64,000 nt of DNA from Halorubrum ezzemoulense DSM 17463 (lineage in GTDB: Archaea; Halobacteriota; Halobacteria; Halobacteriales; Haloferacaceae), in contig NZ_NEDJ01000001.1 in assembly GCF_002114285.1 (NCBI RefSeq), positions 62,001 through 126,000 on the forward strand, given 5' to 3'. The translations under genes and the position numbers were made by a program. This document shows positions 43,457 through 51,043 of the stretch, in pieces. Below the pieces are notes generated by a model. It searched no databases and was not told the origin of the DNA. It was given only the letters and a program-made list of their open reading frames with translations. Numbering within the stretch: the first letter of the stretch is position 1; the number at the start of each line of letters is the position of its first letter.

Positions 43457-44104
43457 ATGAACCGCGACGAGTTCGCCGCCAGCATCGACCACACCGTCCT
43501 CGGTCCGGAGACGACCTGGGACGACGTGCGGAGCGTTCTCGACGAGGCCGCCGCGCACGGGATGAACGCGTGTATCCCGCCGTGCTACGTCGCCGAAGCG
43601 GCCGAGTATGAGGCAGAGCCCGCGGCGATCGCCACCGTGGTGGGGTTCCCGCACGGGCAACACGACCCGACGGTCAAGCGCGACGAGGCGGTCACGGCGT
43701 GGGAGGCGGGCGCGGACGAGGTCGACCTCGTGATCAACGTCGGCCGGCTGAAGGCCGGCGACGGCGGCGCGGTCGCCGACGAGCTCGCGGACGTCGTCGC
43801 GGCCGTGCCCGTCCCGGTAAAGGTGATCATCGAGACCGCCCTCCTCGACGACGCCGAGAAGCGCCGCGCGTGCGAGGCCGCGGTCGCCGCCGACGCCGAC
43901 ATGGTGAAGACGTCGACCGGGTTCGCCGACGGCGGCGCGACCGTCCCCGACGTGGAGCTGATGAGCGAGTACCTTCCCGTGAAGGCCTCCGGCGGCGTGG
44001 GCTCCTACGAGGAGGCGACGGCCATGCTCGACGCCGGCGCGGTGCGGATCGGCGCGTCGTCCGGCGTGGCTATCGTCGAGGGACACCCGGAGAGCGGGGA
44101 GTAA
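43457..44104 (+). CDS. deoC: Deoxyribose-phosphate aldolase
   Basis: A 215-residue class I aldolase that splits 2-deoxyribose 5-phosphate into glyceraldehyde 3-phosphate and acetaldehyde. The Schiff-base lysine is in [17 protein letters not shown], the second lysine in [15 protein letters not shown], and the aspartate in [15 protein letters not shown]. Length and motifs are complete. It belongs to deoxynucleoside catabolism. It is convergent with the transducer gene of the BMP-lipoprotein pair, which may bind nucleosides. Confidence 0.96.
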
Positions 44105-44175: not shown

Positions 44176-46605
44176 CTAACGTTCGTCCGACGACGGGGGG
44201 CGCCCGTCGCCGTCGGCGGCGAGCCCGTCACCGGACGGCGATCCGTCGGCGTCCCCGACGGTCCCGTTCCCGGCATCGCGTCGCTCGTCGCCTCCGACCG
44301 CGTCGTCGCCCTCAGCCCCGTCGACGCCGTCGGACTCCGCGCTCTCGATTTCTTCGGGGTCGACGTCGACATCGAAGGCGGAGACCGACTCGGAGAGCGA
44401 CTCGGCCTGTCCCCGGAGCCGGTCGGCGTTCTCCGCGATGGTGGCGACGGTCGCGGTCTGCTCCTCTGCGGCGGCGGACACCTGCTCGGAGCCGGCGGCG
44501 ACCTCCCCGCTCACCTCGGCGACGTCCTCGACGCCCTCGACCGCGCGCTGCGTCGACCGCGCCTGGTCCTCGGCCGCCTCGCTGATCTCCTGAACGCCGT
44601 GGTTCGTCTCCTCGACGGCGTCGACGACCGCTTCGAGCGACGACGAGGCCTCGCGGACGGTGTCCGCCCCCTCGTCGATCCGCTCGTTTGTCTCGCGGAT
44701 GTCATCGACCGTCGCGTCGGTCTCCTCGCGGACGGTCGCGATCTGCGACTCGATCTCGGCGGCGGCCTCCTGCGTCTCCTCCGCGAGCTCTTTCACCTCG
44801 TCGGCGACGACCGCGAAGCCCTCGCCGGCCTCGCCGGCGCGGGCGGCCTCGATCGAGGCGTTCAGCGCGAGGATGTTCGTCTGCTCGGCCACGTCGGTGA
44901 TGAACTCCACCACCTCGTCGATCTCGTCCATGCGCTCGTCGAGCGCCTCCATCTGCTCGACCGCGGCCGCGGAGCGCGCCTCGATCGCGTCCATCTCGTC
45001 GAGCGCCTCCGAGGCGGCCTCGCGGCCGGACTCGCCGCGCTCCGCGGCGGCCTCGGCGGTCTCCGCGACGGACGCGGCGGACGAGGCGACCTCCTCGATG
45101 CTCGCGGAGAGGTCGCTCATCTCGTCGCTCACCTCGTCGAGGCGCTCGTCCTGACTGATCGCGCCGTCGGCGATCTCCTGAATCTGCTCGCTGACGGTCC
45201 CGCTCGCGGTCTCGACCTCGTCGGCGCCGGCCGCGAGCTCCGCGCTCGCGCCGTCGACCTCGCCGGCGAAGGCGGCGACCCGCGCGGTGGTCCGCTCCAG
45301 CTGGGCCACCATGTCGTTGAACTCCTCGGCGATCTCGCGCATCGCCTCGCGGTCCGCGTCCGGGTCCATCCGGCGCGTGAGGTCACCGTCCGCGACCGCG
45401 CCCATCACCTCGCTGTAGTCGGCCGCACGCGCCTCCATGTCGCGGGTGACGGCCTCCGCCTCCCCGCGGGCCGCCTCGGCCTCGTCGGCGGCGGTCTCGG
45501 CCTCGGCGATCCGGTCCCGGAGCGAGTCCCGCATCTCCCCGCAGCTCCTGAACCGGCGGCCGATCTCGTCGATCCGTCCGGTCGACAGGTCGACGTCGAG
45601 GTCCCCCGACTCGATCCGCTCGGCGCGGTTGCGGAGCCGCGAGAGCGGGAGCACCGTTCGAGTTCCGAGGACGGCGCCCACGACGCCCAGCGACGCGAGC
45701 GTGAGGAAGATGAGGAGCAGCACGGAGTTCCCCACGTCGTTGCGGACGGCGAACGCGGTCGACTGGTCGACGCTCGTGACGGCCACCCAGTCGGTGTCGG
45801 GAACGGAGGCGTACGCGTGGACCTGACCGTCGCCGATCCGCGTCGCGGTCGTGGCGTTGCCCTCCCGGATCGCCTCGACGCCGTCGGCGTGTTCCGCCTC
45901 GTCGACCGTGCCGTCGATGTCGAGGACGGTCTGCCCGGCGGCGTTGAGGATCATCGTCTCCTCCCCGGTGTCGCTGTTCTGGATGCGTTCGAGCTGCGGC
46001 TGGATGCGGGTGACCACGACGAGGTACCGGCCGTCGGCCCGCGGCACCGAGCTGGCGAACGCCATCACCGGGCGGTCGTTGAGCACGGGCGACCGGTACG
46101 AGCGGTCCGACCGCCAGACCCGGTCGTCCTCGCCGACCCCCTCGGGGACGTCCGCGTCGCTCCACGGCGCGTCGAGGTCGCTCGGCGCGCGCCCCTCTAA
46201 GGGGCGTTCGGTGCTGGCGACAACCCGGTCCTGCGCCGCGTCGACGAGGTGGATACTAACGATGTCCTCGGAGAGCAGTTGGTCTTTCAACAGCACGTAC
46301 GCCGGCGCGCGCCGGTCGGACCGGAGCGCGTCGGCCGCCGACATCGACCGCGTCTCGGTGCTCATCCGCTCGGTCCACGACCCGATCGCGTCGGCCTGGA
46401 GGCCGCCGGTCTCGGCGAGCTGCGTCGTCGTGTCCGACTCCACGGTCTGTTCGGTCTGGAGGTAGGTGAACGCGCCCCCGGCGACGACGACCGCCGCGAC
46501 CACGAGGAACGCCAGCGCGAACTTCGCGGCGTACCGGCGGCGCACCGCGTTCGGGAGGAGCCGCCCGACCGCGCGCACGAGGCGCTCGAACGAGTCGGGT
46601 GCCAT
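44176..46605 (-). CDS. Methyl-accepting chemotaxis transducer
   Basis: An 809-residue haloarchaeal transducer. TM1 at about 28-48 ([18 protein letters not shown]), an extracytoplasmic Cache-like sensor (about 50-290), TM2 ([21 protein letters not shown]), a HAMP segment ([26 protein letters not shown]), then a long coiled coil. The signalling tip is [44 protein letters not shown]. The C-terminus is an acidic low-complexity tail. The ATG at 46605 overlaps the stop of the BMP-lipoprotein gene by one base (TGATG), so the transducer should signal for that binding protein to CheA/CheW encoded elsewhere. Confidence 0.95.
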
Positions 46606-47765
46606 CAGTTCACCGCCTCCGGGTCCGTGGGGACCGACAGGTCGCCGGCGACGATCCGCTCGCCGGAGTCGACGATCGCGGCGCGCACGTCGTCGGGGAT
46701 CACCGGCCCGAGCGTCGTACCGTAGACGAGCGCGACGCCGTCCTCGGCGAGCCCGAGCGCCGTCGTGGAGCCGGTGGCGAGGTCGTCGTCGATCGTCTCC
46801 TCGACGGCGTCGTACACCGCGGTGCCGACCCGCTTCACCATCGACGCGAGGATCACGTCGGCGTACCGCGGGTTGCTGCGCGACTGGTCGGAGTCGACGC
46901 CGATCGCGTACCGGCCGTACTCCTGGGCCGCCTGAAACACGCCGAGTCCGCTCCCGCCGGCCGCGTGGTACACCACGTCGGCCCCCTGTTCGAACATCTC
47001 CGCGGCGGCGGCGTACCCGCCCTCGGGGTCGTCGAACGCGCCGAGGTACGTTGACAGCACCGACACGTCCGCGGTCGCGTGGTCGACGCCGGCGCGGTAG
47101 CCGGCCTCGAACTTGCGGACGAGCGGCGAGTCGACGCCGCCGACGTAGCCGACGGTCCGCTCGTCGGGGACGGTCGACCCCGCGCCGACGGACACGTCGC
47201 GGTCCGTCACCAGCCCGGCGAGGTGGCCGGCCTGGAACGACCCCTCGTGTTCGCGGAACACGTAGCTCGCCACGTTGTCGCGGTCGACGACCGAGTCGAC
47301 GATTGCGTACCGCTGGTCGGGGTGCTCGCCCGCGACCGTCGAGAGCGCGTCCGCCTGGAGGAAGCCGATACAGCAGATCAGGTCGTAGGCGGGGTCGGTC
47401 GACGACGAGAGGGCGTCCTGCGCGGTCTCGAACTCCGGGATCGAGGTCGGCTCCTCGTTCGCGAACGCCACGTCGTGATCGAGGCGCGCGCGCTGGATAC
47501 CCCGGTTCGCGGCGTCGTTGAACGACCGGTCGTCTAGCCCGCCGAGCGCGTAGATCATCCCGACCGTCGCGCTGGCGTCCGCCGCGTTCCGGATCGCGTC
47601 TCCCCCGTCGGCCTCGTCGTCCGCCGGTTCGTCGTTGCCGGTGTCTATCGACACCGAACCGGGGGCCTCGTCGCCGAGGCACCCGGCCAGCGCGCCCGCC
47701 ACAGCCCCCCCGAGACCGGCGGCGAGCCGCCGTCGAGAGAGCGTCGTGGGTCCCGTCTGCGTCAT
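46605..47765 (-). CDS. BMP-family substrate-binding lipoprotein
   Basis: A 386-residue secreted lipoprotein: twin-arginine signal LSRRRLAAG (residues 9-17) and lipobox LAGC with Cys29. The mature part matches the basic-membrane-protein/PnrA family of ABC-type binding proteins, e.g. [44 protein letters not shown] and [21 protein letters not shown]. Characterised members bind purine nucleosides. No ABC permease or ATPase is adjacent; it is coupled to a chemotaxis transducer instead. Start MTQTGPTT at 47765. Confidence 0.92.
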
Positions 47766-48411: not shown

Positions 48412-49218
48412 CTACGGGTGGGCGCCGATCAGCTCTCGCACGCGGCCGACGTACTCCGCGAACGCGGCGTCGCCGCGGTCGCGCGGGCGCTCGACGTCGA
48501 CATCGACGACCTCGCGGACGCGGCCGGGATCGGCGGCCATCACGACGACCCGGTCGGCGAGCGTCACCGCCTCCGCGACGTCGTGCGTGACGAAGAGGAC
48601 GGTTTTCCCCGTCGACTCCCACACGTCGAGTAGCTCCCGCTGGAGCATCTCGCGGGTCTGAGCGTCCACCGCGCCGAACGGCTCGTCCATCAGCAGCAGG
48701 TCCGGGTCGACCGCGAGCGACCGGGCGATGGCGACGCGCTGTTTCATCCCGCCCGACAGCGACTTCGGGTAGGCGCCGCGGAACTCGGTCAGCCCGACGA
48801 GGTCGAGCATCTCGTCGACGCGCGCCTCGCGCTCGGCGGCCGATCGGTCGCTCCGTTCGAGCCCGAACCCGACGTTCTCCTCGACCGTGAGCCACGGGAA
48901 CAGGTGGTACTCCTGGAAGACGACGCCCATGTCCGTCGTCGGCCCCGTGACCTCGGTGCCGTCGAGGAGGACGCGGCCGTCGGTCGCCTCGGTCAGCCCG
49001 GCCACGACCCGGAACAGCGTCGTCTTCCCGCAGCCGGACGGGCCGACGAGACAGACGAACTCCCCGTCGGCGACCGAGAAAGACACGTCGTCGAGCGCGC
49101 CCACCGAGCCGCCCTCGCCGTCGCCGGAGTACGTCTTCCCGACCCCGTCGAGCGCGACGCTGGCCGCCGCGGTGGGGGGGGTCTCTCCGTCGCGTCCGGC
49201 CGCGCCGTCTCCGTTCAC
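48412..49218 (-). CDS. ABC transporter ATPase (SsuB/TauB/NrtD type)
   Basis: A 268-residue ATPase. Walker A VGPSGCGKTTLFRV, Q-loop VFQEYHLFPW, signature LSGGMKQRVAIARSL, Walker B DLLLMDEPFGAVD, H-loop VTHDVAEAV: all complete. The combination with a small permease and a lipoprotein fits the nitrate/sulfonate/taurine import family. The likely GTG start at 49218 overlaps the permease stop by four bases (GTGA). Confidence 0.92.
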   Translation of the reverse strand: MNGDGAAGRDGETPPTAAASVALDGVGKTYSGDGEGGSVGALDDVSFSVADGEFVCLVGPSGCGKTTLFRVVAGLTEATDGRVLLDGTEVTGPTTDMGVVFQEYHLFPWLTVEENVGFGLERSDRSAAEREARVDEMLDLVGLTEFRGAYPKSLSGGMKQRVAIARSLAVDPDLLLMDEPFGAVDAQTREMLQRELLDVWESTGKTVLFVTHDVAEAVTLADRVVVMAADPGRVREVVDVDVERPRDRGDAAFAEYVGRVRELIGAHP

Positions 49219-50018
49219 GCCCGCCACGCTAACGCCCTCCGTTCGACCGCGCGGAACGCGACGTCGACGAGCAGGTACATCAGGCTCAACACGAGGATGT
49301 ACGCGATCGCCCGGTCGACGCGCAGGTTGTTGCTGGCGCGGATGATCTCGCGGCCGACCCCGGGGACGCCGAATATCTCCGAGGCGACGACGGGCATCCA
49401 ACACCGTCCCAGTCCGGTCCGGATCCCGGTCATGATTCCCGGCAGCGACGCCGGCAGGACGATCGACCGGACCGCGTCGAGGTCGCCGCGGACGCCGAGG
49501 GTCCGCCCCACGTCGAGGAGGTCCTCGCTCACGCCCTCCACGGCGCCGTACGCCGCGTAGAAGTTGATCCAGAACGCGCCGACCGCGATGATGAACGCCG
49601 CGCCCCAGTCGTTGATCCCGAACCAGGCGATAGCGAAGCCGATCAGCGCGAGCGGCGGGACGGGGCGCAGGGTGCGGACGAGCGGCGCCGTCAGGTCGTC
49701 CAGCAGGCCGCTCCAAGCGAACGCGACGCCGGCGGCCACGCCGAGACCCGTTCCGGCGACGGTGCCGGGGATCCAGTGGCGGACGCTCTGATACAGCGCC
49801 GTCGTCATGTCTCCCGACGCGAGCTCGCCGGCGAACGCCCCGGCGACCGCGACCGGCGAGGGGAGGACGAACGGATCCTGGGTGAGCGAGACGGCGTGCC
49901 AGACGAGGAGGAACCCGACGACCCCCGCGGCGCCCCGGAGGAGCCGCCGCCCGTCTCCGAGCCCGACGCCGGCGAACGCGCCGTCCTCGTCGACGCGCGA
50001 TGCGGTTTCGGTCGCCAT
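49215..50018 (-). CDS. ABC transporter permease (SsuC/TauC type)
   Basis: A 267-residue permease with about six spans. The cytoplasmic coupling loop is VGRTLGVRGDLDAVRSIVLPASLPGIMTGIRTGLGRCW, with the EAA-like G...IVLPA element of this subfamily. The conserved HWIPGTVAGTGLGVAAGVAFAW segment is in the first half. Its ATG at 50018 overlaps the lipoprotein stop by one base (TGATG). It forms a homodimeric channel for the SsuABC-like importer. Confidence 0.92.
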   Translation of the reverse strand: MATETASRVDEDGAFAGVGLGDGRRLLRGAAGVVGFLLVWHAVSLTQDPFVLPSPVAVAGAFAGELASGDMTTALYQSVRHWIPGTVAGTGLGVAAGVAFAWSGLLDDLTAPLVRTLRPVPPLALIGFAIAWFGINDWGAAFIIAVGAFWINFYAAYGAVEGVSEDLLDVGRTLGVRGDLDAVRSIVLPASLPGIMTGIRTGLGRCWMPVVASEIFGVPGVGREIIRASNNLRVDRAIAYILVLSLMYLLVDVAFRAVERRALAWRA

Positions 50019-51043
50019 CAGAGCGAGTCGTACACCCCGAGGTCGAATATCTGGTCGTTCGACAGCTGTTCGTCGGTCTGGCCGTTATCGGCCGCGAACT
50101 CGGCGAACACCTGCGTCGCGTCCGTGATCTCGGCGGGGTCGGTGATGAAGTTCGACAGCGGCGAGTCGAGCGCCTTCCGCGCGCGGTCGACTGGCATCCC
50201 GATTCCCTCCTCGACGTGGCCCGCGGTCGCGTCGGGGTTCTCCTCGATGAAGTCGGTCGCGCGGACGTGCTGTTCGAGGAACTGCGCCGCGATCGGGGAG
50301 TCCCGGACCTCGTCGCTCATCAGGGTGACCGCGGCGGGCTGGCCGGGGAGGACCTCGGCGGCGGTCCGCAGCATCTCCACCGACGACCCCTCCGCCTGCG
50401 CGATGGTCGGCACCGGCTCCATGATCGAGGTGCCGTCGATCTCGTCGTTGGCAATCGCCTGCCAGACGGAGCTCGCCCCGCTGATCTCGATGATCTCCAC
50501 GCTGTCGTTCGCTGCGAGGTCGACGCCGACATCGCGGAGCCAGAAGCGCAACAGCACGTCGGGGACGCTCCCCTGTGGGAACGTGCCGAAGGTGAACGGT
50601 TCGCCCTGCTCCTCCTCCCACGCCGCGAACGCGTCGGCGCCCTGCTGTTCGAACGTCTCGTGGAACGAGGACTCGGCCATGATCCCCATCGGCTCCCGGA
50701 TGTTCGCGGCGGTCACCCGCGCGGCGATACCGCGGTCGATCGCGATCATCGCGGGTACGATCCCGAACATCGCGATGTCGATGTCGCTGCCGCCGAGCGC
50801 CTGAACGATGTCGGGGCCGTTGCCGAACTCCTGGCCGGTGACCTCGGCGTCGACCTCGGAGAAGTATCCCTCGCCCTCCATCACGTACCACTGGAGGTCG
50901 GGGTAGATCGGCATGTGCGCGACCGTGATCTCGTCGAGCCCGCCGCTCCCGCCGCCGAGGCAGTCGGCGAGGCCGACCGTCGCAGTTCCGCCCGCGGCCG
51001 CGAGGAACGACCGCCGCGACGCTGTCCGCGTTGAGTCGTACAT
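50018..51043 (-). CDS. ABC transporter substrate-binding lipoprotein (SsuA/TauA/NMT1 type)
   Basis: A 341-residue secreted protein: twin-arginine signal SRRSFLAAAG (residues 9-18), lipobox LADC with Cys28, then Gly/Ser linker. The mature protein (ITVAHMPIYPDLQWYVMEGEGYFSEVDAEVTGQEFGNGPDIVQALGGSDIDIAMFGIVPAM) is an NMT1/SsuA-like fold that binds sulfonates, taurine, thiamine-pyrimidine precursors or nitrate in relatives. The substrate is not decidable. First gene of the three-gene operon. Confidence 0.9.
   Translation of the reverse strand: MYDSTRTASRRSFLAAAGGTATVGLADCLGGGSGGLDEITVAHMPIYPDLQWYVMEGEGYFSEVDAEVTGQEFGNGPDIVQALGGSDIDIAMFGIVPAMIAIDRGIAARVTAANIREPMGIMAESSFHETFEQQGADAFAAWEEEQGEPFTFGTFPQGSVPDVLLRFWLRDVGVDLAANDSVEIIEISGASSVWQAIANDEIDGTSIMEPVPTIAQAEGSSVEMLRTAAEVLPGQPAAVTLMSDEVRDSPIAAQFLEQHVRATDFIEENPDATAGHVEEGIGMPVDRARKALDSPLSNFITDPAEITDATQVFAEFAADNGQTDEQLSNDQIFDLGVYDSL

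Follow-up and report, generated by a model that had tools for sequence, protein, structure and literature searches.

A Bmp-family lipoprotein paired with a halobacterial transducer: a candidate nucleoside chemoreceptor in Halorubrum ezzemoulense

BasB-BasT and CosB-CosT are haloarchaeal pairs of a binding protein and a chemotaxis transducer; the ligands are branched-chain amino acids, methionine and cysteine in the first and compatible osmolytes in the second. Signals are given for only eight of the 18 halobacterial transducers, and Htr6 has no listed signal (Schlesner et al., 2012; PMC3579733). The pull-downs of the same study recovered Htr6 and CheA together with OE2170R, described there as a "putative periplasmic substrate binding protein"; according to the authors, such experiments cannot prove direct contact within complexes.

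Here we analyze a gene pair, bmp and mcp, in a 64,000-nt stretch of DNA from Halorubrum ezzemoulense DSM 17463 (the window; Table 1). The pair belongs to the BasB-BasT/CosB-CosT kind, which is already known; what is new, as read from sequence, is a Bmp-type member for which a nucleoside ligand is predicted.

Table 1. Features of the bmp-mcp locus, in window coordinates
Feature	Position	Strand	Description
deoC	43457-44104	plus	TIGR00126, 191 bits; neighbor outside the system
mcp	44176-46605	minus	ATG start, 809 aa; two-transmembrane halobacterial transducer (Htr)
MCP signaling domain	44512-45021	minus	residues 529-698; PF00015, E 9.3e-43
Extracellular dCache sensor domain	45739-46461	minus	about residues 49-289, between two transmembrane helices
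One-base overlap TGATG	46605-46607	minus	bmp TGA stop / mcp ATG start; sequence reading
bmp	46605-47765	minus	ATG start, 386 aa; BMP/PnrA-family substrate-binding lipoprotein
Tat-type signal SRRRLA and lipobox LAGC	47679-47735	minus	lipidation at Cys29; read from sequence
NMT1-type ABC transporter	48412-51043	minus	own substrate-binding protein, permease and ATPase; about 0.65 kb upstream of bmp

The gene pair and its distribution

In family profile searches the bmp product matches PF02608 (Bmp) with an E-value of 2.6e-58 over residues 68-379 (profile positions 3-298 of 301), and the mcp product contains HAMP and MCPsignal domains. These matches confirm the first-pass annotation, which had described, with correct coordinates, a BMP-family lipoprotein gene adjoining a chemotaxis transducer gene. 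The one-base overlap that it had reported is equally plain: at the junction, ...AACTGATGGCA..., the A of the bmp TGA is also the A of the mcp ATG. The RR motif and the lipobox recur in nearly all of the bmp orthologues listed.

We searched 391 Halobacteria genomes with Bmp and with the sensor half of the transducer and read 60 loci. Bmp lies directly upstream of a same-strand MCP gene in at least 40 of these genomes, one locus each, from five families (f1, f2, f3, f4 and f7), and nearly all orthologous pairs are joined by a TGATG or ATGA overlap or by a gap of a few bases. Recurrence on this scale argues that the layout is not due to chance, and bmp and mcp are a real two-gene unit. The divergence of Bmp correlates with that of the MCP across the pairs (r 0.95), a value that carries no evidential weight because shared descent predicts such a correlation.

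A few loci are more elaborate. One f4 genome has a Bmp-MCP pair followed by a second lipoprotein gene, LivK/Peripla_BP_6-like by eye, and a second MCP gene (L107:5897-9087, plus strand), which by eye has the look of an array of binding-protein/transducer pairs. At two other loci (L088:3115-8086 and L111:3142-8155, both plus strand) a tandem of two MCP genes comes after Bmp, and the product of the distal one shares only about 38% identity with the window transducer.

A Bmp-MCP pair is also present in a Halobacterium genome whose bacteriorhodopsin is 100% identical to an H. salinarum query over residues 3-262. Its Bmp (PF02608, 6.4e-52) and its transducer share 58% and 55% identity, respectively, with their window counterparts. 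The same contig carries another same-strand MCP gene, plus an opposite-strand MCP gene followed by a lipoprotein gene. The published H. salinarum table runs OE2168R (Htr6), OE2170R, OE2189R (Htr4), OE2195F (Htr18), OE2196F (PMC3579733). Because gene order and strand pattern match this table, we infer, from these rather than from locus tags, that the Halobacterium pair is OE2170R-Htr6 and that the window pair is its orthologue. For the lipoprotein gene after the presumed Htr18 gene (L121:4478-5728, minus strand), which would be OE2196F from its place in this order, a Pfam search at E 0.01 gave no match.

Nucleoside sensing had been called an undescribed specificity for an archaeal chemoreceptor. 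OE2170R and Htr6, the orthologues by gene order, had already been seen together, and no ligand was assigned to them there (PMC3579733). Our literature search, with subscription journals mostly outside its coverage, found neither an archaeal nucleoside chemoreceptor nor later work on Htr6.

The ligand pocket and two lineages of Bmp

Pocket residues named from nucleoside-bound BMP structures (PMC13325309, PMC7093131) were mapped by alignment onto the window Bmp. They correspond to D79, F82, N83, D157, F219, F244, D291 and K311, each kept in 38-39 of the 39 sensor Bmps aligned, and to V290, which is likewise invariant or nearly so among them. The aromatic cradle and the ribose contacts (F82, F244, D157, D291 and K311) occur in all 39; F82 and F244 are the equivalents of BmpA Phe27 and Phe176, residues whose mutation abolishes binding. 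In the transporter Bmps the pocket is the same, except that a few have Tyr or Trp in place of Phe244. Asp27, which contacts the base from loop 2 of PnrA, is absent from the window Bmp, where Ala73 takes its place. Nearly all aligned haloarchaeal Bmps, sensor and transporter, have Ala at this position, and the others have Ser or Gly; with the Asp replaced in both kinds, the base preference of haloarchaeal Bmps is unreadable. The role of the loop-2 Asp differs even between PnrA and BmpD (PMC7093131), so its loss gives no ground against BMP/PnrA membership.

An AlphaFold model of the window Bmp (pLDDT 95.4) has as its best structural neighbors Lbp with guanosine (Z 38.4), TpPnrA with inosine (37.2) and BmpD with adenosine (36.2), and pneumococcal PnrA is also among the closest structures. 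Together, sequence and model suggest that the window Bmp probably has a nucleoside-type pocket, with a nucleoside as the predicted ligand. RfuA, which binds riboflavin (Z 33.9), and AtzT (Z 31.1) have the same fold and rank below the nucleoside-bound structures. Their existence, and the replacement of the loop-2 Asp by Ala, would suit a binding-protein-dependent chemoreceptor for something other than a nucleoside, be it a nucleobase, riboflavin or some further small compound that a BMP-fold protein binds. We regard this as unlikely: all 39 aligned sensor Bmps keep both stacking Phe as well as the Asp and Lys that contact ribose, the nearest structures by sequence as well as by fold are nucleoside-bound, and a transporter paralogue with the same pocket belongs to a NupABC-type operon. 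In Thermococcus, operons of this type are used for nucleosides, and the BMP-type NupDABC system there supports nucleoside-dependent growth (PMC12628685).

Genes for NupATP, NupB and NupC lie downstream of Bmp in each of the 21 loci read that lack a linked MCP gene; NupB and NupC were found at none of the 40 MCP-linked loci read. The separation extends to descent. Maximum-likelihood analysis places the transporter Bmps in a clade of their own (99/99) and groups the core sensor Bmps, that of the window among them, in a second one (98/90); the sensor and transporter labels require two changes on the tree vs 20.7 when shuffled. Eight more divergent MCP-linked Bmps fall outside the core sensor clade, though also outside that of the transporters, and a single origin of the sensor group is for this reason unproven. 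Both kinds coexist in the window's genome, where a different contig carries a NupABC operon with its own Bmp. One binding-protein family, with the same pocket in its sensor-linked and transporter-linked branches, is thus common to transport and sensor systems. Loss of the loop-2 Asp was considered as a sensor-specific pocket difference and rejected, since both groups proved to share the loss once all sequences were aligned. Positions that do differ between the groups, among them R80, R94, R296 and R300, lie outside the pocket columns tested and, judged from the alignment, may mark a docking surface.

The sensor domain, the proposed mechanism and the flanking genes

The extracellular part of the transducer gives a weak match to dCache_1 by HMM and a firm one by AlphaFold and structure search. 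The model of the sensor domain (pLDDT 81.5) resembles dCache chemoreceptor domains in the PDB with Z of about 18 (Mlp24, CtaA and PctA) and Foldseek E-values to 1e-9; McpH is also among the neighbors (Z 16.6). A PDB profile search for amino-acid or purine dCache motifs matched mainly the TM/HAMP part of the sensory rhodopsin II transducer, and for the purine motif Y-R-W-F-D/N of the distal pocket no reliable residue-level alignment of the window sensor to McpH was obtained. Across the pair family the dCache domain is conserved at 67% vs 70% for the cytoplasmic signaling domain, which is unusual for a sensor domain; near-equal conservation is compatible with a fixed protein partner.

In bacterial chemoreceptors, dCache domains make direct contact with ligands such as amino acids, purines and uracil (PMC11245519). 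The dCache domain of the window transducer could itself sense the ligand, with Bmp as a co-expressed uptake protein for a NupABC transporter encoded elsewhere, and the window's genome does have such an operon at another place. Several observations make this arrangement quite improbable. The distant operon has a Bmp of its own, from the separate clade; OE2170R copurified with both CheA and Htr6 (PMC3579733); the purine-binding class, dCache_1PU, is reported only from bacteria (PMC11245519); and in place of the RPWY stretch of amino-acid dCache domains the window transducer reads LDAPW, a comparison made by hand reading with no structural superposition. Delivery of the ligand by Bmp is favored by the conservation of the pair and by the copurification reported for OE2170R.

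We therefore return to the binding-protein-dependent chemoreceptor with a nucleoside ligand, which we consider a likely description of bmp-mcp, its ligand, docking and attractant response all being predicted. The lipoprotein would be exported by the Tat pathway and anchored outside the membrane. Its cleft between two lobes would bind a nucleoside, probably any of several ribo- or deoxyribonucleosides, and close. Closed Bmp would then dock on the dCache domain of the transducer, translated together with it, and the signal would travel by way of TM2 and HAMP to the tip in the cytoplasm, where control of CheA through CheW would switch the archaellum. CheA was found in each of the 40 pair genomes, and archaellins in the window's genome.

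A functional link of the pair to deoC and deoxynucleoside catabolism is very hard to credit. deoC does adjoin mcp at all 13 Halorubrum pair loci long enough to show it, but the two genes are convergent, tail to tail, and every one of the 52 Halorubrum genomes searched has deoC. For the 26 pairs from other genera, no deoC was seen within the stretch read. Among 20 Halorubrum loci that lack the pair, 15 have deoC followed at once by the small gene found past the pair's other end in the window, and neither bmp nor mcp stands between them. The same NMT1-type transporter usually lies beyond that small gene in the pair-less loci. The contiguity of deoC and the small gene in these relatives means that the pair was gained or lost there as a two-gene unit, and the neighborhood is therefore uninformative on the ligand.

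These findings bear on several claims of the first-pass annotation. It had read the adjacency of deoC as evidence for nucleosides, an argument that does not survive for a convergent core gene of Halorubrum whose adjacency is confined to that genus and which is contiguous with the far-flank gene where the pair is missing. Of the lipoprotein-transducer-deoC layout, the Bmp-MCP part is conserved well beyond the window and the deoC part in Halorubrum only. Separation of the pair from deoC in all relatives, which was to speak against nucleoside sensing, is found outside Halorubrum and not within it; outside the genus it only removes one supporting argument. A nucleoside-sensing pair had been proposed: the pairing of a substrate-binding protein with a transducer and, by sequence and model, the nucleoside-type pocket stand, and the argument from deoC does not. 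The core interpretation of the pair is probably right, on grounds other than deoC. It had also been stated that no permease or ATPase is nearby. Taken literally this is incorrect, given the NMT1-type transporter, which is kept in Halorubrum relatives with or without the pair; it is true of cognate NupB and NupC at the pair loci.

Significance and comparison with known systems

We lean towards a broader proposal, that a widespread Htr6-type class of archaeal chemoreceptors senses extracellular nucleosides through a dedicated PnrA-type lipoprotein that docks on a dCache transducer. The nucleosides sensed would probably come from DNA and from cells that have died. In brines, both nucleosides and DNA serve as nutrients. 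Haloarchaea also possess a pathway dedicated to the degradation of nucleosides (PMC9700705), and in combination with these nutrients it would make nucleoside taxis fit haloarchaeal ecology. The main added value of the analysis is a predicted ligand class for Htr6, an orphan receptor of a model archaeon, together with a dedicated sensor lineage of BMP proteins; the link between the window pair and Htr6 gives the orphan receptor a specific and cheap test. If the proposal is true, this would be, to our knowledge, the first PnrA-type protein in chemotaxis rather than transport and the first archaeal nucleoside chemoreceptor.

Among described systems, OE2170R-Htr6, as assigned by gene order and strand, resembles the window pair in having Bmp immediately upstream of the transducer; it differs in genus and genome neighborhood and has no deoC. 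Pairs that we take to be BasB-BasT and CosB-CosT were found in the same H. salinarum genome with the same layout. The resemblance to these two systems that had been proposed holds: in each, a lipoprotein substrate-binding protein gene lies directly upstream of a two-TM Htr gene, and the window pair has no cognate permease or ATPase. BasB-BasT also has the same kind of short overlap (L178), and BasT likewise gives a weak dCache match. The binding proteins belong to different families, Peripla_BP_6 for BasB, OpuAC for CosB and Bmp for the window. PnrA/TmpC of Treponema, PnrA of pneumococcus, BmpD of Borrelia and Lbp of Clostridium share the BMP fold and the conserved nucleoside pocket with the window Bmp; they serve ABC transporters, whereas the window partner is a chemotaxis transducer, and the loop-2 Asp is Ala in the window. 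McpH, of the dCache_1PU class, is likewise a chemoreceptor with a dCache sensor, but it binds purines directly, whereas the ligand of the window transducer is predicted to arrive by way of its binding protein.
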